DNA from: Ruegeria arenilitoris
Lineage (GTDB): Bacteria > Pseudomonadota > Alphaproteobacteria > Rhodobacterales > Rhodobacteraceae
Direction: 5' to 3'
Length of the DNA stretch: 64,000 nucleotides
Assembly: GCF_013032445.1 (NCBI RefSeq)
Contig: NZ_WQCA01000004.1
Span: 248,001-312,000 of the forward strand
Below, one piece after another: positions 5,094 to 29,105 of this stretch. A model generated the notes under the pieces. It saw only the letters and a list, made by a program, of their open reading frames with translations, did no database searches and was not told where the DNA came from. The translations under genes and the position numbers were made by a program. How positions within the stretch are numbered: position 1 is the first letter of the stretch; each line of letters begins with the position of its first letter.

Positions 5094-5094
5094 G

Positions 5095-5943: not shown

Positions 5944-7280
5944 CCAAAATCACTTTTATCGGAGCGGGTTCCACGATCTTCATGCAGAACATCGTGGGCG
6001 ACGCCCTGCTGACCCCCTCGTTGGCCGACAGCCACTTTGCCTTGATGGATATCGACTCCGAGCGTTTGGCTGAAAGCGAAGCTGTAGCCAAGGCAATGAT
6101 CCGGTCGGTTGGAACCGGCGCAACTGTCTCGACCCATACCGACCGCCGCGCGGCGCTGGACGGGGCCGATTTCGTGATCACTGCCTTTCAGGTCGGCGGG
6201 TACGAGCCCTGCACGGTGACCGACTTCGAAATCCCCAAACAATATGGGCTACGTCAGACCATCGCCGATACGTTGGGGGTCGGAGGCATCATGCGCGGCC
6301 TGCGCACTGTTCCGGTTCTGTGGGATGTGGCGCGCGACATGATGCAGCTTTGTCCCAACGCAACCTTACTGCAATATGTCAATCCGATGGCCATCAACAC
6401 CTGGGCTTTGGCCGAGCAGTTCCCGGCGCTGAAACATGTGGGCCTGTGCCATTCAGTCCAAAACACGGTCGAGGAGCTCGCGCATGATCTCGACCTGCCC
6501 AAGGATGAGTTCCGTTACAAGGTCGCAGGTGTCAACCACGTCGCCTTTTTCCTGAAACTGGAACATCAAGGCCGCGATCTCTACCCCGCGTTGCGGCAGG
6601 GTTATGCCAGCGGTCAGTACCCCAAGGCCCCGTTGCTGATGCCACGCTGCCCCAACAAAGTGCGCTATGAAGTTATGGATCACCTGGGCTATTTCTGCAC
6701 CGAAAGCTCCGAGCATCTGGCGGAATACGTCCCGTGGTTCATCAAGGAGGGGCGGCAGGACCTGATCAAACAGTTCTCCATCCCGCTGGACGAATACCCT
6801 ACCCGCTGCGTAGAACAGGTCGCCAATTGGAAGGAACAGGCCAAGACCCTGACCGACGGCCGCGATATCGAGGTGACCCGTAGCCACGAATTTGCAGCCG
6901 ACCTGATGAATGCCATCGTTACCGACACACCCTATGTGGCCTATGGCAACCTGCCGAACACCGGACAGATTCCACAGTTGCCCTTGGGCGCGGCGGTGGA
7001 AACGCCTTGCCTAGTGGACAGCAACGGCGTGCAGCCTTCGGTCGTCAACGCGATTCCGCCGCAATTGATTGCGCTGATGCGGACGCAGATCAACGTTCAG
7101 GAGCTGACCGTTCGGGCGCTAGTCGATCAGAACCCGGAATACATCTATCACGCCGCCATGATGGACCCGCACACCGCAGCCGAACTGGACCTGCGCCAGA
7201 TCCGCAATCTGGTGACAGATCTTCTAACCGCACATTCAGACTGGCTGCCTGACTGGTGCCAGCCCGCCAAAGCCGCTTGA
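5940..7280 (+). CDS. GH4 alpha-galactosidase-type glycosidase
   Basis: This 446-residue cytoplasmic protein belongs to glycoside hydrolase family 4, which uses NAD+ and a divalent metal in an oxidation-elimination mechanism. The dinucleotide fold opens with FIGAGS at residues 6-11. Predicted metal ligands are C170 in GLCHSVQ and H200 in GVNHVAFF, which match the MelA/alpha-galactosidase branch better than the 6-phospho-glycosidase branch. The gene overlaps the permease by 4 bp and precedes the galactonate pathway genes. The most likely reaction is release of galactose from an alpha-galactoside; GH4 also includes alpha-glucosidases and glucuronidases, so the sugar is inferred from context. Confidence 0.85.
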   Translation: MTKITFIGAGSTIFMQNIVGDALLTPSLADSHFALMDIDSERLAESEAVAKAMIRSVGTGATVSTHTDRRAALDGADFVITAFQVGGYEPCTVTDFEIPKQYGLRQTIADTLGVGGIMRGLRTVPVLWDVARDMMQLCPNATLLQYVNPMAINTWALAEQFPALKHVGLCHSVQNTVEELAHDLDLPKDEFRYKVAGVNHVAFFLKLEHQGRDLYPALRQGYASGQYPKAPLLMPRCPNKVRYEVMDHLGYFCTESSEHLAEYVPWFIKEGRQDLIKQFSIPLDEYPTRCVEQVANWKEQAKTLTDGRDIEVTRSHEFAADLMNAIVTDTPYVAYGNLPNTGQIPQLPLGAAVETPCLVDSNGVQPSVVNAIPPQLIALMRTQINVQELTVRALVDQNPEYIYHAAMMDPHTAAELDLRQIRNLVTDLLTAHSDWLPDWCQPAKAA

Positions 7281-7293
7281 AAGGGCTCAGCGA

Positions 7294-9003: not shown

Positions 9004-9770
9004 TGGACCAACCAGCCACCTTCCATGATCTGAACGGCGCTTCGGTCTATATCACCGGCGGCGGCTCGGGCGTTGGCGCAGCACTAACGGATGGGTTCCT
9101 TGCGCAAGGTGCCAATGTCGCCTTTATTGGACGGTCCGACGCCAGTGGGTTTGTCGAGGAAATGCGCGACAAACACGGCCGCGCGCCCCTGTTCATGCAG
9201 GGTGACATGACCGACACCGAGTTGCTGCACGTCACCATGAAAAAAGCCGCCGAAGCGAATGGCTCCCTGAACGTGCTGGTCAACAACGCCGCCAATGACA
9301 AACGCCATTCGCTTGAGGAAACCACCACCGAATTCTGGGACTGGATGATCGAGGTGAACCTCAAGGCCTACTACTTCGCCTGTCAGGAGGCCGCGCGCCA
9401 GATGCAAGGTAAGGGTGGGGCGATCGTTAATTTCAGCTCGATCAGCTACATGATGGGCAATGCAGGCTATCCGATCTATACCACCTCAAATGCCGGAATC
9501 ACCGGGATGACACGGTCCTTGGCGCGCGAGTTGGGGCCGCAGAACATTCGCGTAAATGCGCTGGCCCCCGGTTGGGTTCTGACGCAGAAACAGCTGGATA
9601 TGTGGGCCACGCCCGCGGATCTGGCCGCGCATATGGACCGCCAATGCCTGAAAGAACACCTGACGCCCGAGGACATGATCGCGCCGACCTTGTTCCTGGC
9701 CTCAAACGCCAGCCGGGCGATGACCGGGCAATGCATGGCCGTCGATGGCGGCGTTGTCGTAACGGGGTAG
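9003..9770 (+). CDS. SDR-family dehydrogenase, probable galactose dehydrogenase, Asn at the Lys position
   Basis: This 255-residue short-chain dehydrogenase has the cofactor motif TGGGSGVG (18-25), NNAAN (94-98), S146 and Y159. The residue four after the tyrosine, almost always Lys, is Asn here (YTTSN, N163; codon aat). Position in the operon, between the dehydratase and DgoK, makes it the best candidate for oxidising D-galactose to galactonolactone, the step that no other gene in the window covers. The missing Lys could alter the mechanism, be compensated by another residue, or mean a different reaction. Family is certain; substrate is inference. Confidence 0.85.
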   Translation: MDQPATFHDLNGASVYITGGGSGVGAALTDGFLAQGANVAFIGRSDASGFVEEMRDKHGRAPLFMQGDMTDTELLHVTMKKAAEANGSLNVLVNNAANDKRHSLEETTTEFWDWMIEVNLKAYYFACQEAARQMQGKGGAIVNFSSISYMMGNAGYPIYTTSNAGITGMTRSLARELGPQNIRVNALAPGWVLTQKQLDMWATPADLAAHMDRQCLKEHLTPEDMIAPTLFLASNASRAMTGQCMAVDGGVVVTG

Positions 9771-9774
9771 AGCC

Positions 9775-10668
9775 ATGAATACAGAATGGATTGCGGTCGA
9801 TTGGGGAACCTCGCATCTGCGGGCCTGGGCGATGCGGGGCGACAGCGTTTTGGACCACGCGCAATCGGACAAAGGCATGGCACGAGTGGGAAAAGATGGG
9901 TTCCAGTCCGCCTTGTTCGAATTGATCGAAGGCTGGTTGAGTAGCGGACCCACAGATGTGATAGCCTGCGGCATGGTGGGCGCGCGACAAGGCTGGGTCG
10001 AGGCCCCGTACTCCGCCGTTCCATGCGAACCAACACCGGTTGCTCCGTTCCGTGTGCCGGGGACCGGCCCCCGTATACGCGCCTTCGTTGTGCCCGGTCT
10101 GAAACAAGCCACACCACCCGATGTTATGCGCGGCGAGGAAACCCAGATTGCGGGCTTTCTGGCCTCGCATCAAAACTGGGACGGGGTGATCTGTCTGCCC
10201 GGCACCCATACCAAATGGGTGCAGGTCAGCGCCGGAGAAGTCGTCAGCTTCCGCACTTTCATGACCGGAGAGATGTTCGATCTGCTGGCCGGGCAATCGG
10301 TGCTGAAACACTCGGTTGGCCAGGGCTGGGACGATGCCGCCTTTGCCGACGCCGTGGCAGACACACAGTCCAAGCCCGAACAACTGGCCGCGCGGATGTT
10401 TGGCCTGCGTGCCGCTGATCTGTTGCAAGGACAGGATGGTGATATCACACGGGCGCAGCTATCAGGCTTTCTGATCGGCGCGGAACTGGCCGCGACCCGC
10501 CCCTATTGGCTGGGCCAGCAACTGGCGATCATCGGGGCCGAGGGTTTGTCCGACGTCTACGCCAAGGCCCTGCAACAACAGGGCGCGTTTGTCGAAACCG
10601 CCAACAGCACGCAATGTACTCTGGCCGGCCTTCTGCAGGCCCGTAACCTGACGAGGCAAACCGCATGA
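9775..10668 (+). CDS. dgoK: 2-dehydro-3-deoxygalactonokinase (DgoK)
   Basis: This 297-residue kinase has the DgoK-type N-terminus AVDWGTSHLRAW and the ATP-fold motif GTHTKW near residue 143. DgoK phosphorylates 2-keto-3-deoxy-D-galactonate with ATP. Its stop overlaps the next gene, the matching aldolase, by 4 bp, so kinase and aldolase are translationally coupled. The length fits the family. The pair defines the DeLey-Doudoroff branch rather than the Leloir pathway, of which no gene (galK, galT, galE) is seen here. Confidence 0.93.
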   Translation: MNTEWIAVDWGTSHLRAWAMRGDSVLDHAQSDKGMARVGKDGFQSALFELIEGWLSSGPTDVIACGMVGARQGWVEAPYSAVPCEPTPVAPFRVPGTGPRIRAFVVPGLKQATPPDVMRGEETQIAGFLASHQNWDGVICLPGTHTKWVQVSAGEVVSFRTFMTGEMFDLLAGQSVLKHSVGQGWDDAAFADAVADTQSKPEQLAARMFGLRAADLLQGQDGDITRAQLSGFLIGAELAATRPYWLGQQLAIIGAEGLSDVYAKALQQQGAFVETANSTQCTLAGLLQARNLTRQTA

Positions 10669-11270
10669 GCCGTCCCATCATAGCCATTCTGCGCGGTCTG
10701 CACCCATCAGATGCCGCCTCCACCGGACAGGCCCTGATCGACGCCGGGATCGATAAGATAGAAGTCCCGCTGAATTCTCCCGACCCGCTGGAATCGATCG
10801 GAATTCTGGTCGAAAAGTTCGGCGACCGCGCCCTGATCGGCGCGGGCACCGTTCTGACTACGGATCAGGTGGATGGGGTGGCCAAGGTAGGCGGCAGGCT
10901 AATCGTATCGCCGAACTGCGACCCTGACGTCATATCGCGCACCCATCAACTGGGTCTGGAAAGCTGGCCGGGCATATTTACCCCGACCGAGGCATTTGCA
11001 GCCCTCAAGGCCGGCGCCTCTGGCCTCAAACTCTTCCCCGGCGCACTGGCCGGCCCGGCGGGGCTGTCCGCCCTGCGCGCGGTACTACCCAAGGGCACGC
11101 TGGTTTATGCCGTTGGCGGCGCGGGGCCTGAGAATTTCGACCAATGGATCAAGGCGAGCGCCGACGGGTTCGGCATCGGATCGGCCCTGTTCAAGCCCGG
11201 CATGGCCATCTCTGAGGTTGCTGACCTCGCCGCACGGATCGTGGCTGCCTATGACGAGGCCGCCGGATGA
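10665..11270 (+). CDS. dgoA: 2-dehydro-3-deoxy-6-phosphogalactonate aldolase (DgoA)
   Basis: This 201-residue class I aldolase of the KDPG/KDPGal family shows IAILRG (6-11), the catalytic Glu in KIEVPLNSP, the phosphate-binding GAGTVL and the Schiff-base Lys in LKLFPG. It splits 2-keto-3-deoxy-6-phosphogalactonate into pyruvate and glyceraldehyde 3-phosphate. It overlaps dgoK by 4 bp upstream and the lactonase gene by 4 bp downstream. The EVPLNSP motif (Eda enzymes usually have EVTLRT) supports the galacto-specific member. Confidence 0.93.
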   Translation: MSRPIIAILRGLHPSDAASTGQALIDAGIDKIEVPLNSPDPLESIGILVEKFGDRALIGAGTVLTTDQVDGVAKVGGRLIVSPNCDPDVISRTHQLGLESWPGIFTPTEAFAALKAGASGLKLFPGALAGPAGLSALRAVLPKGTLVYAVGGAGPENFDQWIKASADGFGIGSALFKPGMAISEVADLAARIVAAYDEAAG

Positions 11271-12127
11271 GCACCGTCTACGACGACCGCGCCTGTGAGC
11301 TGGGCGAGGGACCGCTTTGGCATCCCGAGCGGCAACAGCTTTTCTGGTTCGATATCGTCGGCAAACGCCTGATGACGCGGGAAAACGGCGAACAGCACAG
11401 CTGGCAATTCGACGAACATGTCTCGGCCGCGGGTTGGGTCGACAGGGACACGCTGTTGATCGCCTCAGAAACGGGACTTTTGCGGTTCAACCTGAAGACC
11501 GAACAGAAAGAGCTGATAGCCTCGCTAGAAGCGGACAATCCAGTCACACGCTCGAACGACGGCCGCGCGGATCCTTGGGGCGGGTTCTGGATCGGAACCA
11601 TGGGCAAAGGCGCCGAACCTGGCGCAGGCGCGATCTATCGCTACCGTCAGGGCGAATTGCGGCAACTGGTGGCAAACGTCACGATCTCAAATGCGATCTG
11701 TTTCTCTCCGGACCGGTCCTGCGCCTATTACGCAGATACAGTCACAAAGCAGGTCATGCGCTGGCCTTTGAACCCGGAGACCGGCTGGCCCGAGGGTGAA
11801 AGCGCGGTGTTCCTTGACTTGCACGACGAGGGACTGAACCCCGATGGTGCCGTGGTTGATGTCGACGGCAATATCTGGATCGCTCAGTGGGGCGCGAGCC
11901 GTGTGGCGGCCTATACCCCTACGGGTCAGTTCCTGACGGCGGTCGCGTTTGAGGCTACTCATACTTCATGTCCCGCCTTTGGCGGCGGCGACCTGAAGAT
12001 CTTGTTTTGCACCACTGCCCGCGAGGGGCTGGATGCAGGGACCTTGGCCAAACTCCCAACCAATGGCATGACCTTTGCCGCCCCTGGCGCAGGCAAGGGA
12101 CAGGCCGAACACAGAGTCCTTCTATGA
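11267..12127 (+). CDS. SMP-30/gluconolactonase-family sugar lactonase
   Basis: This 286-residue six-bladed beta-propeller of the SMP-30/regucalcin family has the expected metal ligands: Glu in GEGPLWH near residue 15, Asn in SNDGRADPWGG near 102 and Asp in NPDGAVVDVDG near 195. It would hydrolyse the galactonolactone made by the SDR to galactonate, the dehydratase substrate. It overlaps dgoA (4 bp) and the GH42 gene (ATGA at 12124-12127). Relatives act on galactono-, arabino- and gluconolactones, so specificity rests on context. Confidence 0.9.
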   Translation: MSTVYDDRACELGEGPLWHPERQQLFWFDIVGKRLMTRENGEQHSWQFDEHVSAAGWVDRDTLLIASETGLLRFNLKTEQKELIASLEADNPVTRSNDGRADPWGGFWIGTMGKGAEPGAGAIYRYRQGELRQLVANVTISNAICFSPDRSCAYYADTVTKQVMRWPLNPETGWPEGESAVFLDLHDEGLNPDGAVVDVDGNIWIAQWGASRVAAYTPTGQFLTAVAFEATHTSCPAFGGGDLKILFCTTAREGLDAGTLAKLPTNGMTFAAPGAGKGQAEHRVLL

Positions 12128-14031
12128 AGCCCGAACTTGGCGTTTGCTACTATCCCGAACATTGGTCCGAAGAGATGTGGGCCGAGGACGCGGCCCGCAT
12201 GGTGGAAACCGGCTTGAGCTGGGTGCGGATCGGTGAGTTTGCCTGGAGCCGGATGGAGCCAAGCCCCGGCGATCTGCAGTTTGAATGGCTGGATCGCGCA
12301 ATTGAGGTGTTAGGGGCCGCGGGGCTGAAGGTGGTGTTAGGTACGCCGACGGCAACGCCACCGCGTTGGATGCTGGACAAACACCCCGACATGCTGGCCG
12401 TGGATGCTCAGGAGCAGCCGCGCAAGTTCGGATCGCGCAGGCACTATTGCTTTAGCCATATGGGCTATATCGCCGAGTGTGAGCGAATTGCCCGGATCAT
12501 GGGCGAGCGTTACCGACGCAACCCGCATATCGCAGCGTGGCAAATCGACAATGAATATGGCTGCCACGAGACCACGGTGAGTTACAGCCAAGCAGCCTTG
12601 CAGGCGTTTCGGCGGTGGCTGGCGGATCAGTATGGGTCCATCGACGCGCTGAATGCCGCATGGGGCAATGTATTCTGGTCGATGGAATACGACAGTTTTG
12701 ATCAGATCGATCTGCCCAACCTGACCGTGACCGAGCCCAACCCGGCCCATGTTCTGGCCTTTCGCCGCTTCAGCTCGGATCAGGTGGCAGTGTTCAATAA
12801 GGCGCAAGTGGATGTGCTGCGACCACTGACCGATGCGCCACTGCTGCACAATTATATGGGGCGGATACTGGATTTCGACCACTTCAAGGTCGGTAAGGAT
12901 CTGGATATCGCCACCTGGGACAGTTATCCGATCGGGTTTCTGTCGGACCGGCTTGAGGCCGACGAAGCGCATAAGACGGCATTCCTGCAACAGGGTGATC
13001 CGGACATGCAGGCCTTTCACCACGACCTCTACCGTGCTGTCGGACGCGGGCGCTGGTGGGTGATGGAGCAGCAACCCGGCCCGGTAAACTGGGCCCCGTA
13101 CAATCCCGCCCCCCTGCCCGGCATGGTGCGCCTTTGGTCGCTTGAGGCGGTGGCACATGGCGCCGAGGTGGTCAGTTACTTCCGTTGGCGGCAGGCCCCC
13201 TTCGGACAGGAGCAGATGCATGCGGGATTGCTGACCCCGAACAACGCCGCTGCCCCAGCTTTGGCCGAGGCTCGTCAGACCGCCGATGATCTGGCGGAAC
13301 TGGGCGCGGTCACGCAGGCACAGGCAGACGTGGCCATTCTTTTCGACTACGCCTCGGACTGGGCCTGGACGACACAGCCGCAAGGGGCCGGGTTCAACTA
13401 TTTCCGGCTGGTCTTTTCGGCCTATCGCGCGCTACGTCGGGCCGGGCTGTCCGTGGATTTCCTCTCGGCGTCCGAAACGCCAAAGTCCGGGTACAAGCTG
13501 ATCCTCGCCCCCGGGCTGGCAACATTGGGCGATATGGTAGAACAGCGCCCGGACCAGCTGACACTCTTTGGCCCCCGCAGCGGCGCTATCACGCACGACT
13601 TTCAGATCCCCAAAACTCGCCCCGGCCTTTCCGGATTGGATTGCGAAGTTGAACTAGTCGAAACCCTGCCTCCGAACGTATGCCGCGAGGTTGTTGGCGG
13701 CGGCGCAGCCCAGCACTGGATTGATCGCTTGTCCGGTAGTGCCCCGGACCTACTGACCTATACCGACGGAACATCCGCACTGAAGGGTGAAAACGGGCTC
13801 TGGTATCTGTCTGGGTGCTCGGATGAAACCCTGTGGGATCGGGTGATCTCAATGGCCGCACATGAGGTTGGACTGACCTTGCATCCTATGCCCGAAGGAC
13901 TACGGCGGCGCGAGACCGAACAGCACGTTTTTCTGATCAACTACAATTCTTCCCGCGTTTCTTGGAACGGGCATGAGATTGGTGCCTGTGAAGCACTCAT
14001 CCTGAAAAAACACGCGCCCGAAGAGGGGTAA
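12124..14031 (+). CDS. GH42 beta-galactosidase
   Basis: This 635-residue cytoplasmic enzyme is a glycoside hydrolase family 42 beta-galactosidase. The acid/base is E144 in WQIDNEYG and the nucleophile E315 in WWVMEQQPG. The trimerisation-type domain and a C-terminal beta domain follow in normal length. The start at 12124 is chosen because it gives the 4-bp ATGA overlap with the lactonase and because GH42 proteins begin with this ELGVCYYPE block; the frame is open further upstream inside the lactonase gene. It ends the galactoside operon and gives the locus both alpha- and beta-galactosidase activity. Its last codons carry a terminator for the opposite strand. Confidence 0.93.
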   Translation: MKPELGVCYYPEHWSEEMWAEDAARMVETGLSWVRIGEFAWSRMEPSPGDLQFEWLDRAIEVLGAAGLKVVLGTPTATPPRWMLDKHPDMLAVDAQEQPRKFGSRRHYCFSHMGYIAECERIARIMGERYRRNPHIAAWQIDNEYGCHETTVSYSQAALQAFRRWLADQYGSIDALNAAWGNVFWSMEYDSFDQIDLPNLTVTEPNPAHVLAFRRFSSDQVAVFNKAQVDVLRPLTDAPLLHNYMGRILDFDHFKVGKDLDIATWDSYPIGFLSDRLEADEAHKTAFLQQGDPDMQAFHHDLYRAVGRGRWWVMEQQPGPVNWAPYNPAPLPGMVRLWSLEAVAHGAEVVSYFRWRQAPFGQEQMHAGLLTPNNAAAPALAEARQTADDLAELGAVTQAQADVAILFDYASDWAWTTQPQGAGFNYFRLVFSAYRALRRAGLSVDFLSASETPKSGYKLILAPGLATLGDMVEQRPDQLTLFGPRSGAITHDFQIPKTRPGLSGLDCEVELVETLPPNVCREVVGGGAAQHWIDRLSGSAPDLLTYTDGTSALKGENGLWYLSGCSDETLWDRVISMAAHEVGLTLHPMPEGLRRRETEQHVFLINYNSSRVSWNGHEIGACEALILKKHAPEEG

Positions 14032-18807: not shown

Positions 18808-20772
18808 TCACGGCTCTATCCAGACTGAGACACCATAGGGCGGGATTTCAGAAGTACCAACAAGATATTGGCGATCCTCGGGGTCGGACAATATCTGCGG
18901 CGTTGCGCCGAAATTGAAGGCAAAGACCAAAGCGCCCCGGCGCGCGAGGCGCACATCCCTGTTGTTTTCCGTTACTGGGATTCCCGCCCAGTTCAGCGCC
19001 TCGGTCAGAATAGTCTGCAACAGCGGCCCGCGCGGGATCATCGCCAGGTACATCGCCCGATCCGACTGCACAATTGCCGGGCTGCCATCCCGGTAAGCGC
19101 TTGAAAAACAGGCTGCTATCGAATGTTCAGTCTCGATGATTTCGCGCCATCCGGTGAATTCGTGCTGTGTGCCGTCCTGCAGACGCACCGATTCCCGCGC
19201 CAGATCGGGCAATGATTCGACCCTCAGAACCCGGACACCCACCAAATCGGCCAACTCACCCGGGGCGAGGTTTTGGGGTGTGTGCATGTCGGCGGTCTTA
19301 CTGCCCGCGCGGGCACCGATCAGCAGCTTTGCCTGACTGTCCCGCAACCGTTTCGCCAGATCTTTAGAGACGATCATGCTTTGCGGCAAAACGATCATTG
19401 CATAGCCGGTCAGGTCATCCTCTGGCCCGACAAAATCCAGATCAACGCCAAGAGATCGCAGCCCCGCATACCATTCTCGGAAAATCTGTGCATTCGGGAA
19501 CGCGTCATCGTGGGGAAGGATATCGGCGGCCCAGATGGACGGATAATCCAGCAGAATGGCAACCGACGCCCGTTGGCGTGTTGCCGAAGGCAATACAGCT
19601 CGCTCCTGAACCACCTGCGCCAGTTCCAGCGCGGCCTGATCTGGACTGCCGTCCGAGCGCAACAGGGCGGTGTGAAACTGCTCTTGCGCGAATTTGGCCT
19701 GTCGCCAGCGGAAGAACATCACCGCCTGCGCGCCGTGGGCATAGGCTGCCCACGTCCACAGCCGAACCATGCCATCTGCCGGGGATGGGTTCTTTTCCGC
19801 CCAGTCCACGGGGCCGGGCTGCTGTTCCAGCACCCACATGCGCCCGTTGCCCTGTGACCTGTAGAGATCGCAGTGAAACCCCTGATAATCCGGCGCACCT
19901 GTGCGCAGGTATCGGTGCTTGTCCTCATCGGACAGGGTCGAGCCCAGCAGGTTGCCCAACGGATAGCTGTCGAAGCCGACGATATCCAGATCGGTCGCGA
20001 CGGCGTGATGATCGAATTCGAAACTGCCCGCCATGAAGTTATGAGTGATATCCCGGCCTGGGGAAAATTGCCGAACGATGTACACCTGCGCCCGGTTGAA
20101 CAACCGCACCCGTTCCGAAGAATAGCGCGCGAAATCAAGCGCATGGGTCGGGTTGGGATTGGCCACCAGCCCATTGGGCAGCTCGATCTGGTCAAAGCTT
20201 GTATAGCCGGATGCCCAGAACACGGTGCCCCATGTCCGGTTCAGATTGTAGATGGTGCCGTAACGCTGCTCCAACCAGCGGCGGAACCCGTCGCGCGCCG
20301 CATCCGAGTAGCTGAGCACCGTGTCATGGTCGTTATACTCATTGTCGATCTGCCAGGCGTGGACATGACGGTTTTCTCCATAACGGCGGGCGTATTCGGT
20401 TGCGATCCGGCGCGACTCGGCCAGATAAACGTCGCTGGAAAAACAATAATGCCTGCGGGACCCGAACCCCCTGACGCGCCCATCCGGACCAACCGGCAGG
20501 ATTTCCGGGTACTCATTGATCAGCCATTTCGGCGGCGCGGCCGTCGGCGTGGACATCATCACGCGCAGGCCCGCATCACCCAGAATGTCTATCACCTCGT
20601 CCAGCCAGCCCCAGTTGAACTGCCCCCGCTCGGGTTCAATCAGACTCCAGGTAAATTCTGCAAGGCGCACCCAGTCGAGGCCCATCTCGACCATCCGGCG
20701 TGCATCCTCGCGCCAAAGCGACTGATCCCATTGTTCGGGATAGTAGCAAACCCCCAGTTCAAGCTTGCTCAT
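18808..20772 (-). CDS. Second GH42 beta-galactosidase-like hydrolase
   Basis: This 654-residue protein is a second GH42 enzyme, clearly related to the one at 12124 but divergent in the middle and C-terminal parts. The acid/base is E145 (WQIDNEYN) and the nucleophile E316 (WVLEQQPG). The start at 20772 gives a 4-bp ATGA overlap with the permease; a start 33 bp further upstream is possible but lacks that logic. It ends the operon that carries a polar-amino-acid-type transporter, so its substrate may be a glycosylated amino acid, amine or polyol rather than lactose. It has no signal peptide. Confidence 0.92.
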   Translation of the reverse strand: MSKLELGVCYYPEQWDQSLWREDARRMVEMGLDWVRLAEFTWSLIEPERGQFNWGWLDEVIDILGDAGLRVMMSTPTAAPPKWLINEYPEILPVGPDGRVRGFGSRRHYCFSSDVYLAESRRIATEYARRYGENRHVHAWQIDNEYNDHDTVLSYSDAARDGFRRWLEQRYGTIYNLNRTWGTVFWASGYTSFDQIELPNGLVANPNPTHALDFARYSSERVRLFNRAQVYIVRQFSPGRDITHNFMAGSFEFDHHAVATDLDIVGFDSYPLGNLLGSTLSDEDKHRYLRTGAPDYQGFHCDLYRSQGNGRMWVLEQQPGPVDWAEKNPSPADGMVRLWTWAAYAHGAQAVMFFRWRQAKFAQEQFHTALLRSDGSPDQAALELAQVVQERAVLPSATRQRASVAILLDYPSIWAADILPHDDAFPNAQIFREWYAGLRSLGVDLDFVGPEDDLTGYAMIVLPQSMIVSKDLAKRLRDSQAKLLIGARAGSKTADMHTPQNLAPGELADLVGVRVLRVESLPDLARESVRLQDGTQHEFTGWREIIETEHSIAACFSSAYRDGSPAIVQSDRAMYLAMIPRGPLLQTILTEALNWAGIPVTENNRDVRLARRGALVFAFNFGATPQILSDPEDRQYLVGTSEIPPYGVSVWIEP

Positions 20773-22415
20773 CGGTTTTCCCTTGCCGTGCGGCGTTCGA
20801 TCCATTTCAGGAAGCTGGCGCAGCCCAGCGTGATCACGACATAGAGGATCGCCGCGGTGTTAAACGGTGCAAAGGGCAGGAAACTGGCGGCCTGAAACTC
20901 GCGCATCCGCTGGGTCATATCGCGGACCGACAGGATCGACAGCAGCGAAGTATCCTTGATCATCGCAATGAATTCATTGCCCAAGGGCGGCGTCACGATC
21001 CGCAACGCCTGCGGCAGGATGATCAACCGCGCGGTTTGCCAGCGGGACAGGCCGAGCGAGCCACCCGCTTCGATCTGTCCACGAGGGATGGCCTCGATGC
21101 CGGACCGGAAAATCTCGGCCATATAGGCAGAATAACCCACAGATATGGCGATGATCCCGCGCGTCATATTGGTCATGTCGATGCCGCCGCCGGTGGCGTC
21201 CTTGACCGCCCCCGCCAGAGGCAGGCCGATATAGAGAATGATCACCAGCATCGGAATGCCGCGGATCGTGTCGACAAAGAACTCGGCCCCCACGGCCAGC
21301 GGGTGCAGTTTGTGTTGTGCCCCGCCAACGGTCAGCGTCAGCAGCAGAAAGCCAAAGACGGCAAAAGCCAGCGCCGGGTTACGGTATTTGTCCGGCAGGA
21401 ACTGTGTCCGCCAGATCACCGGATACCCCTTGGTGTTGGTGCCAACCGGAACAAATGCACCCGAGACACTGTCTACGGTTTCGATCTGCTCCAGCGCGCT
21501 GGCCGCATCCGGGGCGCTGCGGATACGATATTGCGGGCTTTCACCTTCCTGAAACTCACCAAAGCGGATCATGTCGGCCTGCGCTTGCGGAGTGCCGCGT
21601 ACGATGGCGATGCGGGCGTCCAGCGTACCGATGAGCTCATATTTGACCTGTGGCTGCATGAAGAAAAACGCCGAGATGGCCAGCAAGGCCAGACTGATGC
21701 AGCCATAGGTGACGGTCGTGCGGGCCTTGGGTTTGAACGATTGCAGCCCGACCCAGATCAGGCCCAGAATGGCTGCGAAGATATAGGCGAAGATAGCCGC
21801 CCGGAACGTGATCGCCACCCCGGTGGCGAATTGCCAATGCGCCATGAACATCAGATAGAACAGAACCGCGCCTGTCAGGATTTCAAACCCCAGACGCACA
21901 TAGGCCCGCGACCCGTTTGGTAGACGAGAGGACATCAGGATCGCGGCAACGACAAGAGCGTAAATTACCAGCACGATTTGCAGCCCGGTCTGAACCTTAT
22001 CGACCACCTCGGGGAACAGCACCCACGTTTGCGAGGATCTGTCGATCAGAGTCGATGTGTTTTCGCTGAGGGCGTGAAAAAAGACAGACTCGGCAAAGGG
22101 CATCAGTACCTGCGGCGCCGCGAGCCCCAAAACCGCCAACACCAACGCTGATGGCAATGCCACTAGCGCCGCAACCCGCAGCCAGCCCGGCGCGGCGTCG
22201 TGAAAGCGCGCGTATCGAGCACAGAGATACCCCAGAATTGCCACCGCGATAATGATCAGAAACCCAACAAAAATCGGCCCTGCGTTATTGCCGATCCCTA
22301 AGATCGCAATCAGTGACCGCAGGTATTTCGACGAAGTGGCAAACAAGTAGATGATGAACGGAGCAGCGGCGAGCAACACAAGGTTGCTCGGGCGGATCGA
22401 GCTTAGGCGCGACAT
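20769..22415 (-). CDS. Polar-amino-acid-type ABC permease with long N-terminal and periplasmic extension
   Basis: This is a 548-residue permease; HisM/GlnP-type permeases have 220-280 residues. The C-terminal ~200 residues are the permease domain, with the EAA region EAGGSLGLSRWQTARLIILP near 480. The N-terminal half has about six further helices. Between them lies a soluble stretch (about 285-365) with wording such as ADMIRFGEF and GAFVPVGTN, reminiscent of a piece of a type-3 binding protein. It is coupled to the GH42 gene by ATGA. No ATPase gene is adjacent, so one must be supplied from elsewhere. The cargo is unknown. Confidence 0.85.
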   Translation of the reverse strand: MSRLSSIRPSNLVLLAAAPFIIYLFATSSKYLRSLIAILGIGNNAGPIFVGFLIIIAVAILGYLCARYARFHDAAPGWLRVAALVALPSALVLAVLGLAAPQVLMPFAESVFFHALSENTSTLIDRSSQTWVLFPEVVDKVQTGLQIVLVIYALVVAAILMSSRLPNGSRAYVRLGFEILTGAVLFYLMFMAHWQFATGVAITFRAAIFAYIFAAILGLIWVGLQSFKPKARTTVTYGCISLALLAISAFFFMQPQVKYELIGTLDARIAIVRGTPQAQADMIRFGEFQEGESPQYRIRSAPDAASALEQIETVDSVSGAFVPVGTNTKGYPVIWRTQFLPDKYRNPALAFAVFGFLLLTLTVGGAQHKLHPLAVGAEFFVDTIRGIPMLVIILYIGLPLAGAVKDATGGGIDMTNMTRGIIAISVGYSAYMAEIFRSGIEAIPRGQIEAGGSLGLSRWQTARLIILPQALRIVTPPLGNEFIAMIKDTSLLSILSVRDMTQRMREFQAASFLPFAPFNTAAILYVVITLGCASFLKWIERRTARENR

Positions 22416-22435
22416 GGGACCTCTCTGCAGATATG

Positions 22436-22463
22436 CGGCCCGGTCGCTACTTGCGCCGGGCCG
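22436..22463 (-). promoter_or_regulatory. Hairpin between the PAAT binding-protein and permease genes
   Basis: CGGCCCGG (22436-22443) and CCGGGCCG (22456-22463) form a perfect 8-bp stem with a 12-base loop. There is no T-run. Like the hairpins at 4078 and 17455, it sits directly after a binding-protein gene and probably favours its expression. Confidence 0.55.
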
Positions 22464-22481
22464 TTACGGGAAAGACCGGTG

Positions 22482-23237
22482 TTACTCGGTGCTCCAGTAC
22501 TTGCCTATCAACGTGTCCAGAGTGCCGTCGGCCTTGATCGCCTCAAGCCCTGCGTTGATCGCGTCAACCGTGGCGTCGCCCTCCTGGAAAACAATGCCCA
22601 GCGGATCGGATTGCAATCCGGTGATGCCGACCGTCAGTTCGCCCGCGAATTCCTGCTCGTAAGCAGAGGCCGAAGTGCCGTCGATGATCACACCCTGAAC
22701 ATCGGCGTTCTGCAGTGCCAGGATCGCGGCTGAAAAGTTGTCATAAAGGCTGACATTCTCACGCCCGACCAGTTCCTCGGCCAGTTGCGCATTGGTGGTG
22801 CCGGTCTGTGCGGCCAGTTTCAGGCCACCAGCCTTGAAATCGTCCAGCGTCAGGTCGGCGTTATCAACTTGCAAAATAATGGCTTGGCTCACCACGATGT
22901 AGGGCTCGGAGAAGTCCATCGTTTCTTCGCGTTCCGGTGTGATTGACACGCCCGAAATCACCAGATCAAACTCTCCCTGCTGGAGCGCTGCAAAGATGCC
23001 ATCCCATGCAGTATTGACGAAATTCGGAACACAATTCACCTTTTCGCAAATCGCGTTCATCACATCCACGTCAAAGCCCACGATCTCACCAGTCGTCTCA
23101 TCGACTGTCTCCATCGGCGGATAGGTGGCGTCGGTTCCGATTTTAAGAACGCGCCCTTCCAGATCGGCGGCAAAAGCCGCTGGGGCGGCCATCGCAGTCA
23201 GAGCGGCTGCGGCCAGTAGATTCTTGAACATCTTCAT
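22482..23237 (-). CDS. Polar-amino-acid-type ABC substrate-binding protein
   Basis: This 251-residue periplasmic protein has a Sec signal peptide (MKMFKNLL, Ala-rich core, cleavage after AAFA) and the type-3 binding-protein fold. Typical motifs are IGTDATYPPME, GFDVDVMNAIC, DLVISGVSITPER and SEPYIV. Proteins of this family bind amino acids, opines or related compounds. It is the third gene of an operon with an isomerase, a LacI regulator, the long permease and a GH42 enzyme. That mix suggests a ligand with both amino and sugar parts, which is inference. Confidence 0.92.
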   Translation of the reverse strand: MKMFKNLLAAAALTAMAAPAAFAADLEGRVLKIGTDATYPPMETVDETTGEIVGFDVDVMNAICEKVNCVPNFVNTAWDGIFAALQQGEFDLVISGVSITPEREETMDFSEPYIVVSQAIILQVDNADLTLDDFKAGGLKLAAQTGTTNAQLAEELVGRENVSLYDNFSAAILALQNADVQGVIIDGTSASAYEQEFAGELTVGITGLQSDPLGIVFQEGDATVDAINAGLEAIKADGTLDTLIGKYWSTE

Positions 23238-23253
23238 TACTCCTTCTGTTGGT

Positions 23254-24300
23254 CTATTTTGTGGGCGCTGTGTGCAGCGCAGGGGTGTCAGGTTGGCGCT
23301 CGATGAGTGTGGCCCTGATCTTTTTCTGGGTCTCGGACGGGTTGGCCCCGTCCAAAGCTTTCAACATGTATTCGCCTAGAAGGCGGCTGGTCTCTTCGAT
23401 CGGCACATAATAAGTGCTGGTCGGTGGCACGAAATAGCGGCTGAGTTGCAAATCATCGGTCGAAATCACCACTAAATCCCTGCCGATCCGAACCCCGGCG
23501 GCATGGGCGGCGGACAACACGCCCAAGGTCATAGCCTCATTCGCGCAGATACAGGCCGTCGGGCGATCCGGCAGCCGCATCAGCGCGTCAAAGCTATTCT
23601 GCCCCGTGCGTGCCGTAGTAGAGCCATTGAAAATCAGGGCCGAGTCGATCGGAATTCCACCATCAGTCAGGGCCTGTTCGTATCCGGTTTGGCGCTGGGT
23701 GGCGTAGATCAGCTCAGCCGGAGGGTTCACCAAGGCAATACGACGGTGTCCCAGACGCACCAACCGCGCGGTGGCGTCGAACGCTGCCGCCTGACTGTCG
23801 AAGTCCACATAGGCGTGCTCCATTTTGCTATCGCTCATCCCCATGGTGACAAACGGGAAGGCATGTTGCTGTAGAAAAGCAATGCGAGGGTCATCATGGA
23901 GGGTGCCCGAGAATATAACGCCATCCGCCAGCCCATCCTGAACGATCCGCGCCAATGTCGTCATGGCATCCGGGATATCGGCCACATTGAACACACTCAT
24001 TTCATAACGTGACCCCTGCAAGGCCGCTGAAATTCCGGCCAGAATACGCGTGAACTCCACCCCTTCCCATTCCTCTGCCGCGTCCGGCGACACGCTGACC
24101 AAAACTGCGATGCGATAGGACTTGTTGGTGCGCAACTTCAACCCATCCATGTTGACGCGATAACCTAATCGGGTCGCAACGGCCTGAATCTCTTGGCGTG
24201 TCTCTGACTTGACAGATGCTGCCCCGCGCAGCGCATTTGAGACGGTGCCGACGGAATAGCCGGTCTCTTTGGCAATCGACTTGATCGTCGCGCGCGCCAC
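23254..24300 (-). CDS. LacI-family transcriptional regulator
   Basis: This 348-residue protein has a LacI helix-turn-helix (TIKSIAKETGYSVGTVSNAL, residues 5-24) and a periplasmic-binding-like effector domain to about 330. The start codon is GTG at 24300; it shares one base with the isomerase stop (TAG/GTG). It lies between the isomerase and binding-protein genes, so it is co-transcribed with what it probably regulates. A perfect LacI-type palindrome at 25070-25085 in front of the first gene suggests autorepression. The effector is probably the sugar released or imported by this operon. Confidence 0.92.
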   Translation of the reverse strand: MARATIKSIAKETGYSVGTVSNALRGAASVKSETRQEIQAVATRLGYRVNMDGLKLRTNKSYRIAVLVSVSPDAAEEWEGVEFTRILAGISAALQGSRYEMSVFNVADIPDAMTTLARIVQDGLADGVIFSGTLHDDPRIAFLQQHAFPFVTMGMSDSKMEHAYVDFDSQAAAFDATARLVRLGHRRIALVNPPAELIYATQRQTGYEQALTDGGIPIDSALIFNGSTTARTGQNSFDALMRLPDRPTACICANEAMTLGVLSAAHAAGVRIGRDLVVISTDDLQLSRYFVPPTSTYYVPIEETSRLLGEYMLKALDGANPSETQKKIRATLIERQPDTPALHTAPTK

Positions 24301-25052
24301 TATCCGACCTCTGCCGAGAGATGACGTTCAAGAAATCTGTGCCCGGTCTGAAGGGTTTCGGCATGTTTGGTCGTTTCATCATGTTCGACAAACAGATCAG
24401 TGCATGGGCTTGATTCCAAAATGTGCAGTACGCGGGGCCAATCCACCACGCCCTGCCCCAGGTTGCGCCAGCGCTCATCGCCTTGGCCTGCCGAGGGTTC
24501 GGCATCCTTGGCATGAACCGAAACGATCCGGTCCGCATAGCGCTGCAACAGTCGTGTCGGATCCTTTTGAGACACCGCCAACCACCCGATATCGGGTTGC
24601 CAGTACAGATTCTCCTGCGCCAGGATCAAGTCCAACGGCGTTTCGTCAGAAAGTTCGGTAAGGTCATAATCATGATTGTGGTAGGCAAGGTGAATGTCAT
24701 GTTCTGCCAGCTGGGCACCCCAATCTGCCAACTGGCCCGACACGTCCATCCATCCCTCGGACGTGTCGGGCCTCGCCTCGGGCGTCAGCCACGGCATGAC
24801 GGCCACCCGGCATCTTAACAACCTTAGCAGATCGAGAATTTCGTCAAAGCGAGTCTCAAACTCCTCCCAGTCGAAATGTGCTGAACGCACGTTCAAGCCT
24901 GATCGTTCCACCCGGCGCACCATGTCCTGAGGGGTCAGATCGTGAAAACCAATCGTCTCAATATCCGTGAATCCGCAGGCGCTAACGAGATCCAGTTGAG
25001 AGGCTAGCCCCCCAATCTGCCGAACCGTATATAACTGCGCTGCAATCCGCAT
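24300..25052 (-). CDS. Xylose-isomerase-like TIM-barrel sugar isomerase/epimerase
   Basis: This 250-residue protein belongs to the AP endonuclease 2/xylose-isomerase-like TIM-barrel family (sugar phosphate isomerase/epimerase, IolE-like). Likely metal ligands are in AYHNHDYD, WQPDIGW and VHAKDAE. The start at 25052 (MRIAAQLYTVR) is chosen because the family begins there; an in-frame ATG 57 bp upstream would place the operator at 25070-25085 inside the coding region. It is the first gene of the operon with lacI, the PAAT-type transporter and GH42. It may convert the sugar released by the hydrolase; the reaction is unknown. Confidence 0.82.
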   Translation of the reverse strand: MRIAAQLYTVRQIGGLASQLDLVSACGFTDIETIGFHDLTPQDMVRRVERSGLNVRSAHFDWEEFETRFDEILDLLRLLRCRVAVMPWLTPEARPDTSEGWMDVSGQLADWGAQLAEHDIHLAYHNHDYDLTELSDETPLDLILAQENLYWQPDIGWLAVSQKDPTRLLQRYADRIVSVHAKDAEPSAGQGDERWRNLGQGVVDWPRVLHILESSPCTDLFVEHDETTKHAETLQTGHRFLERHLSAEVG

Positions 25053-25069
25053 ATCCCCGGTCAAACCAT

Positions 25070-25085
25070 ATTGAAACGTTTCAAT
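25070..25085. promoter_or_regulatory. LacI-type operator
   Basis: ATTGAAACGTTTCAAT is a perfect 16-bp palindrome with the central CG typical of LacI-family operators. It lies 18 bp upstream of the isomerase start. A further half-site GTTGAAAC follows at 25089-25096. The LacI protein encoded by the second gene of the operon is the obvious ligand. Confidence 0.7.
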
Positions 25086-25209
25086 TAGGTTGAAACAGCA
25101 ATACGCCACTTGTCAAGCATAGGGTTTCGACGCGCATCCTCGTCACGAAACTCCGTGTAATTCGAGTTGCGTTGACTTCCCCATCGAATAAGCAGTCGGT
25201 TTTTCTGTT

Positions 25210-25369: not shown

Positions 25370-27451
25370 ATGCTATTTAAACGCGCAGATTTCCCCAAAG
25401 ATTTCCTCTTTGGCAGTACCGTCCTTGGTGGGCAGCACGAAGGCTCTACTCTGGGCGACGTGTTACCGGGCGCGAATGGCAATCAGGCCTGTGGACATGG
25501 AGGCTTTAATCCGCGGGAACTGGATCTGGTTCGCGAAGCCGGGTTTGACTGCTACCGCTTTTCGGTCAAATGGGCGCATGTCATGCCCAATGGTCGTGGC
25601 GTGGTAAGCCAGAAAGGGTTGGACTATTACGACAGTCTGGCCGATGCCTTGTTAGAGCGCGAGCTTCGACCTTGTGCGACGCTTTATGACAACACCCTTC
25701 CTGAGGCACTGGCAGACCTGGGCGGATGGCGGAACCGCGATTGTGCTGGTTGGTTTTCCGACTTCACTGAGATTGTCATGAGCAACATCGGTGACCGCAT
25801 TTATAGTGTTGCGCCAATTGAAATGCCCTCATCTTTCAGCATGCTAGGCGAAGCTCAAACATCAGGTTTGAACGAGAACCGGGCCAAAGCACGTATGATG
25901 CATCACCTTTTGGTGGCCCATGGAAAAGCAATCGCGGCAATGCGTGGTTTGGGGATGACCAATCTGGGCGCGGTGTTCAGTCTGGACCTTACCTCCTCCG
26001 CTGCTTCCAGCCCTGACATTGCCGTTGAGTTGGACGATATCTTAAGCCAGTGCTTTCTGGGCGGCGTATTCAACAACGCCTACCCGGACGTTTTGCTGGA
26101 GATTCTTGAACCTATCCTGCCGACGGCATGGCGGGATGATTTCGAAGCCATTGGCACGCCGATTGATTGGTGCGGCCTACGTTTCAACTCACTCAAGCCG
26201 ATTGATCCCAATGCCCTGACCTCCATCCAGCAGGCTTATACGAAGGAGCTGCCTATCTATCTCATGGAAAACGGCGAAAATGGCTCTGAACCCCCGCACG
26301 ATGACAAAGGCCTCAATCAGAACCTGAAAGTCGTGCAAAAAACTCTGGAACTCGGCACGCCAGTGAAAGGCTACTTCATCCGAACATCTGGGAAAGATAA
26401 CCTGCCCGCTCTGGAAACCATGTTAGCAGGAAGCTCGGTCTCGCTGCCCCTCGCGCAGCCCGCCGGCGCCATGCACGAACATTGGAATCTGGTCGCCGAT
26501 ATTGGCGGCACCAATACGCGGTTGGGCGTGATCTCGAATGGCAAGCTGACCGATCTGCGGAAATACCCGACGGGCACCCTGCCCGAGTTGCTTGAGGCGT
26601 TTCACAGCCTGCGTGATGAGATCGGAACCGATCCGCGCGCCGTGGTGGCCGCCGGGGCCGGACCGGTTAAGGACGGAACGATCCGCCTGACCAATGCCAA
26701 TCTCGATCTGTCCGAACATGATATCGGCAAAGCAACCGGTGCACAGCACACCTTTGTCATTAATGACTTCACCGCTGCCGCCTGGTCCGTGGCAGAGATC
26801 ACCGGTGATGACGTCGAGGTTTTGCAGGGCGCCGCGACACCGCCCCGCGGAACAAGGCTGGTCGTAGGGCCGGGCACCGGTCTTGGCGTTGGTGCCCTGC
26901 TCTATTCAGAAGGTCGCTACCACACAGCTTCGGGAGAAGGAGGCCATGTAGGCCTGTCGCCCCGCCATGTCGATGAGGTCGAGGTTTTCCGCGCCGCCCG
27001 TCACATCTCACCAGATTGCTTTTTTGACGATACCTTGGTGCTTGAGGCTGAAATGTTCCTCAGCGGTACTGGCCTGCCGATCCTGTACCAAGCCGCCGGG
27101 ATGGCCGCCGGTCAAGCCAATACACCAGTGCGCAGCGCCCGAGACATTCTGGAGGACGCCCGCGCACAAACCGACCCGATTGCGGTGAAAGCGGCGCATA
27201 TGTTCACCACCCATCTGGGTGCGGTGATGGGCGATTTGGCCGTCGTGCTTATTCCCTCGGGCGGAGTGTTTCTTTTGGGTGGCGTCGCCGAAAAGAACCG
27301 CTGGCTGTTCAAGGACGCGTTCCGCGATGCATTCAACGCAGGTGGGCGGTTTAGCGATTTGCGGCGCTCATTCAACTTGTATGTTTCGGAACAGGACGAA
27401 TTTGGCATTGTTGGCGCTAACAATTTCTGCAAAAGTGCGCTCGCGCGGTAG
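25370..27451 (+). CDS. Fusion of a GH1-like domain and glucokinase
   Basis: This 693-residue protein has two domains. Residues 1-355 resemble a shortened GH1 beta-glucosidase: GQHEG (21-25), the pair E151 (APIEMP, where GH1 has NEP) and E300 (YLMENG) align with the two catalytic glutamates. The substrate-binding Asn before the acid/base and the His of the usual HWDLP (here DNTLP, near 107) are lost. Residues 368-693 are a full bacterial glucokinase with ADIGGTNTRLG, INDFTA, GPGTGLG and EGGHV. An in-frame ATG at 26471 lies just before the kinase domain, without a clear ribosome site. The protein would cleave a glucoside and phosphorylate the glucose, if the GH1 part is active. Confidence 0.87.
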   Translation: MLFKRADFPKDFLFGSTVLGGQHEGSTLGDVLPGANGNQACGHGGFNPRELDLVREAGFDCYRFSVKWAHVMPNGRGVVSQKGLDYYDSLADALLERELRPCATLYDNTLPEALADLGGWRNRDCAGWFSDFTEIVMSNIGDRIYSVAPIEMPSSFSMLGEAQTSGLNENRAKARMMHHLLVAHGKAIAAMRGLGMTNLGAVFSLDLTSSAASSPDIAVELDDILSQCFLGGVFNNAYPDVLLEILEPILPTAWRDDFEAIGTPIDWCGLRFNSLKPIDPNALTSIQQAYTKELPIYLMENGENGSEPPHDDKGLNQNLKVVQKTLELGTPVKGYFIRTSGKDNLPALETMLAGSSVSLPLAQPAGAMHEHWNLVADIGGTNTRLGVISNGKLTDLRKYPTGTLPELLEAFHSLRDEIGTDPRAVVAAGAGPVKDGTIRLTNANLDLSEHDIGKATGAQHTFVINDFTAAAWSVAEITGDDVEVLQGAATPPRGTRLVVGPGTGLGVGALLYSEGRYHTASGEGGHVGLSPRHVDEVEVFRAARHISPDCFFDDTLVLEAEMFLSGTGLPILYQAAGMAAGQANTPVRSARDILEDARAQTDPIAVKAAHMFTTHLGAVMGDLAVVLIPSGGVFLLGGVAEKNRWLFKDAFRDAFNAGGRFSDLRRSFNLYVSEQDEFGIVGANNFCKSALAR

Positions 27452-27490: not shown

Positions 27491-28417
27491 ATGATCCTTT
27501 GCTGCGGTGAAGCCCTGATCGACATGATCCCCACCCCGACCGTTTCGGGCGGTGAAGGGTTTGTGCCCCATTCCGGCGGCGCCATTTTTAATACGGCGAT
27601 TGCGCTGGGGCGGTTGGGGGCTCCGGTCGGGCTGCTGACGGGGCTGTCTTCGGATATGTTCGGGGAGCAATTGGCCGATGCCCTGCAGGCCAGCCATGTG
27701 GACGGCAGCCATGTGATCCGCTCGAATCGACCGACCACACTGGCCTTTGTGCAGCTGAAGGACGGGCACGCAACCTACAGCTTTGTGGATGAAAACTCGG
27801 CCGGGCGGATGTTGACGCCCGAGGACATGCCCGACCAGTTGCCCGCCGTGTCGGCGCTGTATTTCGGTGGGATCAGTCTGGCCTGCGAACCCTGCGCGGA
27901 TGCCTATGCTGCGCTGCTGGACAAGCATGGGGCGGATCGAGCCGTAATGATCGATCCGAATATCCGGCCCGATTTCATCAAGGACCAGACCCGCTATCGC
28001 ACCCGGCTGAACCTGATGATTGCGCAGGCGGATATCGTGAAGGTGTCAGACGAGGATCTGGACTGGATCGTCCCCGGCCCCGAAACCATCGCTGAGAAAG
28101 TGCCGCTTTTGCTTCAGGCTGGTCCGGCGGTTGTCATCGTCACCCGGGGCAGCGATGGTGCGTCGGGCTATCTGGCGGATGAGTCCGAAACCTCCGTCCC
28201 GGTTCCGCCGGTCGAGGTGGTCGATACAGTCGGTGCAGGCGACACTTTCAACGCCGGCGTTCTGGCTGAGCTGGAACAGGCGGGTCACCTGAGCAAACCC
28301 GCCCTTCGCGCCCTGACCCCCGACCAATTGCGCGCAGCCCTTGCCAAGGGGGCCGAGGTCGCCGCTGTCACCGTATCCCGCGCCGGGGCAAACCCGCCCT
28401 GGGCGCACGAGCTTTGA
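27491..28417 (+). CDS. PfkB-family carbohydrate kinase, probable fructokinase
   Basis: This 308-residue kinase has the PfkB signatures GGAIFNTAIALGRLG near residue 29 and DTVGAGDTFNAG near 242, with the catalytic Asp in GAGD. GAAAGGA about 10 bp upstream is a good ribosome site. It lies 39 bp after the glucokinase fusion and 16 bp before the D-lyxose isomerase. Fructose is the natural substrate in this setting, since the isomerase can form it from mannose. Other ketoses cannot be excluded. Confidence 0.88.
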   Translation: MILCCGEALIDMIPTPTVSGGEGFVPHSGGAIFNTAIALGRLGAPVGLLTGLSSDMFGEQLADALQASHVDGSHVIRSNRPTTLAFVQLKDGHATYSFVDENSAGRMLTPEDMPDQLPAVSALYFGGISLACEPCADAYAALLDKHGADRAVMIDPNIRPDFIKDQTRYRTRLNLMIAQADIVKVSDEDLDWIVPGPETIAEKVPLLLQAGPAVVIVTRGSDGASGYLADESETSVPVPPVEVVDTVGAGDTFNAGVLAELEQAGHLSKPALRALTPDQLRAALAKGAEVAAVTVSRAGANPPWAHEL

Positions 28418-28433
28418 CCTTAAAGAGACAGAC

Positions 28434-29105
28434 ATGAAAAGATCTGACATCAACGTTATCAAGACCGAGGCCGAAGCCTTCATCCGTTCGTTCGGTGCTG
28501 TGCTGCCACCCTTTGCCAACTGGTCCCCGGAACAGATGCGCAGTGAAAAAGCTGCAGGCATTCGCGAGCGCGGGCTGGGTTGGGACATCACCGATTATGG
28601 GCAGGGGCGCTTTGATGAGTTGGGCCTGTTTCTATTCACCCTGCGCAACGGCGATGTGGGCGATCTGAACAGCGGTCGCGGTATGCTTTATGCCGAAAAA
28701 CTACTTGTCTCGCGCGACAAACAGCTATCACCGATGCACCGTCATATCATCAAGGCCGAGGATATCATCAACCGGGGCGGCGGCGATCTGGTGATGGAGA
28801 TTTACGCCTCGGACGCCGAAGGTGGCATCGACCGCAACAATCCCGTTGTCGTGCCCAGCGATGGCTGCCCGGTCACGATCAAACCCGGCGAACTGCTGCG
28901 CCTGAAACCGGGCGAAAGTGTCACCCTGATGCCCGGCATCTGGCACGCCTTCTGGGCCGAAAAGGGAGATTGTCTGATCGGAGAGGTCTCAACCGTCAAT
29001 GATGATCGCACCGATAACGTGTTCGAAGACCCGATCCCCCGCTTCGCCACCATCGAGGAAGATACCGCAGCCGATTTCCTGCTGGTCGCGGATTACTATT
29101 CCTGA
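28434..29105 (+). CDS. D-lyxose ketol-isomerase (mannose isomerase)
   Basis: This 223-residue cupin-type protein matches the D-lyxose isomerase family (EcLyxI-like). The metal site is suggested by MHRHIIK and Glu in LVMEIY, with a further His in GIWHAFW. The family interconverts D-lyxose and D-xylulose and also D-mannose and D-fructose. The start at 28434 follows a ribosome site AAGAGA; the frame is open further upstream inside the fructokinase gene. Next to a fructokinase, mannose to fructose is the likelier reaction here. It ends the operon. Confidence 0.88.
   Translation: MKRSDINVIKTEAEAFIRSFGAVLPPFANWSPEQMRSEKAAGIRERGLGWDITDYGQGRFDELGLFLFTLRNGDVGDLNSGRGMLYAEKLLVSRDKQLSPMHRHIIKAEDIINRGGGDLVMEIYASDAEGGIDRNNPVVVPSDGCPVTIKPGELLRLKPGESVTLMPGIWHAFWAEKGDCLIGEVSTVNDDRTDNVFEDPIPRFATIEEDTAADFLLVADYYS

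Follow-up and report, generated by a model that had tools for sequence, protein, structure and literature searches.

Loss of catalysis in a retained domain of glycoside hydrolase family 1 (GH1) has been described for Klotho: the cited section of PMC10628560 presents the KL1 and KL2 domains as GH1 pseudoenzymes in which one or both catalytic glutamates are missing and whose role is non-hydrolytic, the nearest precedent for a GH1 barrel kept after such a loss. Another pseudoenzyme retained alongside an active enzyme is the AdoMetDC prozyme, a paralogue without catalysis of its own which, according to the cited part of PMC5201418, activates its partner. Here we analyze a gene of Ruegeria arenilitoris (contig NZ_WQCA01000004.1, positions 248,001 to 312,000; this stretch of 64,000 nucleotides is referred to as the window, and all coordinates follow its numbering unless another locus is named) which encodes a GH1-like barrel and a glucokinase in one chain. 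In contrast to Klotho, whose proteins are animal co-receptors, this barrel is bacterial, has trimmed pocket loops and is fused to a metabolic kinase, and whereas the prozyme (as described in the cited part) acts on an enzyme of the same kind as itself, the dead domain has no relationship to the kinase to which it is joined. The product is most likely an active glucokinase, as judged from its conserved residues, that carries a still-folded but dead barrel.

The gene is a single uninterrupted open reading frame of 693 aa, occupying exactly 25370-27451 (+). Its N-terminal half matches Glyco_hydro_1 (PF00232; 152.8 bits, residues 29-271, profile positions 42-293 of 453) and its C-terminal half matches Glucokinase (PF02685; 217 bits, residues 374-687, profile positions 1-311 of 314); a profile search of the genome gave no second match to either family. 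The barrel is of the GH1 (β/α)8 type and shares fold, conserved structural residues and direct descent with the GH1 β-glucosidases (TIGR03356, PF00232), but the acid/base residue, the β8 loop and most of the −1 subsite are missing, and the score against TIGR03356 is 192.9 bits (cut-off 478.5). The kinase half has the whole domain and the active-site residues of the PF02685/TIGR00749 glucokinases (167.3 bits against TIGR00749, cut-off 225.45), and differs from them in the barrel placed in front. The protein also matches positions 9-326 of 638 of NF010701 (bifunctional transcriptional regulator/glucokinase), another glucokinase fused to a second domain; by profile positions, however, the regulator lies behind the kinase, whereas here a dead glycosidase precedes it. 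No published account of a Ruegeria glucokinase/β-glucosidase fusion was found in the open-licence literature, judged by titles.

The fusion is widespread in the genus. Among 54 sampled Ruegeria genomes, 50 have one open frame across both halves; the GH1 part is complete in 31 of them (open frames of 775-810 aa) and degenerate in 19, the window included (611-720 aa). These are hereafter called complete and dead fusions. A search for related loci returned 21, all from Ruegeria, each aligned from query residue 1 or 5 to 693. The original prediction, made from the window alone, had allowed for an isolated in-frame joining; this and an assembly error are ruled out by the occurrence of the fusion in 50 of the 54 genomes. 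Such a frame was not seen in the other four genomes. GH1 and Glk are separate genes in G037, and in G045 the contig ends within Glk and a GH1 match is absent. Among the genus genomes scanned, G025 gave neither a GH1 nor a fused-protein match, and G028 likewise lacked a GH1 match, its Glk match being single, weak and stop-containing.

The active site of the barrel is largely destroyed. In HMMER alignments to solved GH1 enzymes, E151 and M152 stand opposite the Asn and the acid/base Glu, respectively, of the NEP motif. The first of these alignments also places E300 opposite the nucleophile; the genus alignment (the window and 64 further frames) assigns all three residues to the same columns. Both catalytic glutamates had been predicted to be kept. 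However, gap-free alignments show EMP instead of NEP: the acid/base Glu is Met152, E151 is at the Asn position, and E300 alone remains, as the nucleophile Glu of the ENG motif, which is retained in four of the 19 dead fusions and missing in the other 15. Ten columns are taken to form the GH1 active site; all ten are intact in every one of the 31 complete fusions, while the window retains the Q and the nucleophile, and within the −1 subsite (Q, H, N, Y, W, E, W) the Q alone. The β8 motif WSLLDNYEW, on which the prediction was silent, is deleted.

The original prediction stands in part. The joining of a GH1-like domain to a glucokinase is borne out by the reading frame and the two profile matches, the HWDLP motif, whose His had been read as lost, is indeed gone (YDNTLP in the window), and the barrel is indeed short, the protein having 81 residues fewer than its complete 774-aa relatives, all of them missing from the GH1 part. 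The two retained glutamates have to be given up, and a changed specificity finds no support, since the ten columns are replaced in scattered ways.

The kinase half presents the opposite picture. Its N, D, E, H and E positions, which we take to be the glucose-binding and catalytic residues 99, 100, 157, 160 and 187 of Escherichia coli glucokinase, are present in the window and invariant in 19/19 dead and 31/31 complete fusions. As far as sequence can tell, the kinase very likely still works, whereas the GH1 half is very likely dead.

The decay of the barrel followed its architecture. Residues deleted amounted to 52% for the βα-loops, 3% for the strands and 0% for the αβ-loops, and the GH1 fold is retained. 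The window is altered at 88 of 304 near-invariant GH1 columns. In its group of dead fusions 71-106 such columns are changed, compared with 97-117 in a second group (group B), in which more loops are also deleted.

The GH1 half appears to have died repeatedly. On the Glk DNA tree the dead state requires three changes and a single dead clade is rejected (approximately unbiased test, p 0.00013), and on an rpoB tree (quick method) it requires nine changes on the best tree, six of them forced by well-supported branches, a single clade again being rejected (p 0.0034). A single origin is thus rejected on both trees, though recombination could mislead both. Dead copies adjacent on the Glk tree have few derived residues in common: of 46 near-invariant columns changed in both the window and G004, 11 carry an identical residue. 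The shared proportion has a median of 0.175 over all pairs and is 0.90 for G004 and G003. These comparisons support at least two origins, recombination aside, and more than two are likely.

Selection on the two halves was compared by the ratio of non-synonymous to synonymous substitution rates (dN/dS). Its median is 0.07 for GH1 and 0.14 for Glk in complete fusions (44 pairs, Glk dS under 1.2), and 0.24 and 0.07, respectively, in dead fusions (22 pairs). Pairwise values were also computed with transition-weighted sites for 12 chosen pairs (9 dead, 3 complete). Between the window and G004 the barrel has a dN/dS of 0.51 (0.38-0.66) and Glk of 0.08. We dropped the barrel value as proof of purifying selection after the loss, since so few derived residues are shared, and because the two copies may have decayed largely apart we turned to group B. 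Four of its genomes (G018, G043, G014 and G052) have eight deletion runs in common, with identical or almost identical positions, and share 46-52 derived residues pairwise, and their barrels give dN/dS values of 0.33-0.48 (upper bounds to 0.64); all 21 pairs of seven group B1 genomes give 0.31-0.59 (upper bounds to 0.80). The corresponding pN/pS ratio in group B is 0.21-0.31 for β1, β2, β3, α3 and α4, 0.38-0.44 for α2, β5 and α5, and 0.61-0.93 from β6 to α8. To judge from these codon comparisons, the N-terminal half-barrel is under constraint in group B, the most trimmed group. Faster decay in the window's group found no support, because its range (0.34-0.51, nearest pair 0.84) overlaps that of group B. 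Across all 19 dead copies 39 residues are invariant; these have the appearance of general GH1 structural residues rather than of a new patch.

Outside the genus the two genes are commonly neighbours. In the family, 210 of 394 genomes match the complete fusion at 1e-90; among the matches listed, 48 span both halves (46 with one internal stop, two with two) and most of the others consist of the GH1 part alone. GH1 and glk are commonly adjacent in other genera, often in the same frame with one stop between them. The 18 junctions resolved in 27 out-group loci have gaps of 8-72 nt, and 12 of the 18 are in one frame, a biased choice that gives no family-wide rate, as 20 of the 27 loci came from the top of a ranking favouring same-frame pairs. 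No unbroken fusion outside Ruegeria occurs among the matches listed for the 394 genomes (the two unbroken ones, G000 and G042, are Ruegeria), and a class-wide sample of 385 genomes searched at 1e-170 gave none besides the window's own; long open frames in G118, G206, G100 and G194 were ruled out as fusions, being separate genes in different frames. Given this arrangement, the fusion would most simply have arisen when an ancestor of the genus lost the stop codon of GH1. The unfused Glk of G037 (L073, about 5967-7041) lies in a galactoside operon and has an N-terminal extension without ATG; a Glk tree, with an out-group that is not clean, places it within Ruegeria but on a long branch, and it may represent either total loss of the barrel or a gene that was never fused. 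In the same tree, the glucokinase of L116 (G249, another genus), which lies beside GH1, has a very long branch (2.73).

The surroundings of complete and dead fusions differ. The agl cassette (GH13, two permeases, solute-binding protein and LacI regulator) lies within about 6 kb of 30 of the 31 complete fusions and of none of the 19 dead ones; in the window its site is occupied by the divergent cluster listed in Table 1. The sole exception, the complete fusion of G024, already stands in the window-type context (GH42, permease, LacI, isomerase), and its agl cassette is on a different contig, followed by a short GH1 5′ stub without start codon. This stub (roughly 84 residues; L088 6688-6939, G024:C2) is a possible footprint of the parting of cassette and fused gene. 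A GH42 gene is found near 18 of the 19 dead fusions (the exception is G019), and nine of these close a galactoside operon (DgoK, lactonase, GH42). As the dead fusions lie away from agl and near galactoside genes, the kinase seems to have shifted its service from glucosides to galactosides. A separate complete GH1 frame is present in 12 of the 19 dead-fusion genomes and in G037, but in none of the 31 with a complete fusion (Fisher p 4e-7, although the genomes are related). All 13 of these stand-alone genes lie beside agl genes and branch within the Ruegeria GH1 clade (support 100/99), which rules out a foreign origin. Seven dead-fusion genomes, that of the window among them, lack both a separate GH1 and, at 1e-60, an agl permease.

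The following course of events would account for these data. A GH1 gene (bgl) and glk, neighbours in other genera, would have come into one frame in Ruegeria, most simply through loss of the GH1 stop. The fused gene would then have become separated from the agl cassette for glucoside uptake and in most cases have landed beside β-galactosidase genes, and β-glucosidase activity would have been taken over by a separate GH1 gene or abandoned, after which the fused GH1 half could lose its catalytic residues and the loops of the catalytic face. Frame-shift or removal of the dead half would be hindered, since the kinase has its start site ahead of that half. The window product would thus be a functional glucokinase whose N-terminal half is a folded GH1 pseudoenzyme without catalytic activity.

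We rate as even the chances of this explanation as a whole, in which the pseudoenzyme, in frame before the only PF02685 glucokinase of the genome, probably has a residual structural role. For the retained N-terminal half-barrel a part in chain folding, in solubility or in packing against the kinase is probable, with folding or packing as our best guess. Several observations weigh against a structural role or the history proposed for it. The nearest dead pair, G003 and G004, has a barrel dN/dS of 0.84 (0.43-1.77), part of the divergence between the window and G004 may precede the loss, as few derived residues are shared, and drift of the barrel is conceivable in the window's own group. Even in group B, constraint appears to be absent from strand β4 (3 codons) and from the loops of β4 and β5 (pN/pS 0.79-0.87), and a milder N- to C-terminal gradient of constraint is present already in complete fusions. 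Replaced hydrophobic residues stay hydrophobic in a proportion of 0.62-0.63, compared with a one-step chance of 0.58 in what is a weak test of core versus surface, and in the predicted structure the kinase half and the domain arrangement are of too low confidence for use. The Glk and rpoB trees conflict in detail and Ruegeria loci recombine, which suggests that the fusion locus has probably done so, and the link between dead fusions and stand-alone GH1 genes comes down to five independent pairs, none opposing the trend (sign test, median p 0.25). A structural role is further weakened by the broader range in group B and by the withdrawal of faster decay, and the explanation overlaps with the alternative of a barrel that is a pure passenger, without role and being whittled, its frame kept solely for the downstream kinase. 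This is a serious contender, if a less probable one: besides the value for G003 and G004, the many altered columns of the window and the few it shares with G004 indicate that much of the decay is recent, and the C-terminal half-barrel of group B is near neutral. Yet the four group B genomes kept low barrel values although their ancestor had nearly the same deletions, the upper bounds over the 21 pairs remain below 1, and every αβ-loop has been spared.

Readings that leave the barrel a catalytic or sensory function are unlikely. A bifunctional hydrolase-kinase with changed specificity and an alternative acid/base could draw on the retained E300, on E151, one residue away from the acid/base site, and on the existence of GH1 enzymes without the acid/base Glu, the plant myrosinases; loss of the H, N, Y and W of the −1 subsite and of the β8 loop, together with the missing nucleophile in most dead copies, makes this the most improbable explanation. 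Translation of the kinase alone from the ATG at 26471 (residue 368), the upstream frame being a pseudogene, is only slightly less remote. The codon pointed to by the original prediction is present and looks like the old glk start, an ATG, GTG or TTG being found at that place in 27 of 31 complete and 8 of 19 dead fusions, but no AGGA was seen before it in the window. In the 11 dead fusions that have lost this codon the kinase is still conserved, and must be read through the barrel or begun elsewhere; the upstream frames are open in all 19. A non-catalytic glucoside sensor tuning the kinase is also very unlikely: the fold is retained, and in Klotho such dead domains serve as binding proteins (cited section of PMC10628560), but the losses hit precisely the sugar-holding −1 subsite and the pocket loops, with replacements differing between lineages.

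Table 1. Features of the fused gene and its neighbourhood (window numbering).
Feature	Position	Strand	Basis
Dead GH1-like barrel + glucokinase, 693 aa	25370..27451	+	Open reading frame, profile matches, genus alignment
GH1-like domain, residues 1-355; eight predicted strands, loops of catalytic face shortened	25370..26434	+	
YDNTLP (residues 106-111) where complete fusions have YHWELP	25685..25702	+	Alignment
E151-M152-P153 where Asn-Glu(acid/base)-Pro expected	25820..25828	+	Alignment
Junction of 30-residue deletion, β6-α6 loop, between residues 282/283	26213..26218	+	Alignment
E300, position of nucleophile, retained	26267..26269	+	Alignment
Junction of 27-residue deletion removing WSLLDNYEW... 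of β8-α8 loop, between residues 339/340	26384..26389	+	
Linker, residues 356-371, contains ATG at 26471	26435..26482	+	
Glucokinase domain, residues 372-693	26483..27448	+	PF02685 match, active-site columns
PfkB-family sugar kinase gene, downstream; behind 49/50 fusions	27491..28417	+	
D-lyxose isomerase family gene (PF07385), next in same run	28428..29105	+	
Divergent cluster: GH42, ABC permease, solute-binding protein, LacI regulator, isomerase-like TIM barrel	18808..25109	-	

The linker is taken to derive from the old GH1 tail, the intergenic gap and the glk start. Elsewhere in the window, a galactoside catabolic run at 4170-14031 comprises ABC permeases, GH4, an IlvD/Edd-type dehydratase, a short-chain dehydrogenase/reductase, DgoK, lactonase and GH42; in group B a similar run directly precedes the dead fusion. 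Within the divergent cluster, an amino-acid-type ABC permease of 548 aa (20769-22415, -), in which the permease domain is not reached until about residue 350-377, adjoins a family 3 binding protein, the LacI regulator and GH42, and is unusual as a transporter in a sugar cluster.

Pseudoenzyme domains tend to be viewed as end states. Here a series can be followed within one genus and its family, from separate neighbours in other genera, through the complete fusion (31 genomes) and the complete fusion away from the uptake cassette (G024), to dead fusions that are less trimmed (the window's group) and more trimmed (group B). It is possible, though on the comparisons made here rather doubtful, that several Ruegeria lineages independently turned a fused glucosidase into an obligate non-catalytic part of glucokinase, shedding the same loops and leaving the β1-α5 half-barrel as a structural or allosteric domain which the kinase needs. 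Repeated outcomes from one starting point would offer a test of whether a dead domain, once fused, is trapped, and whether its partner then comes to depend on it.
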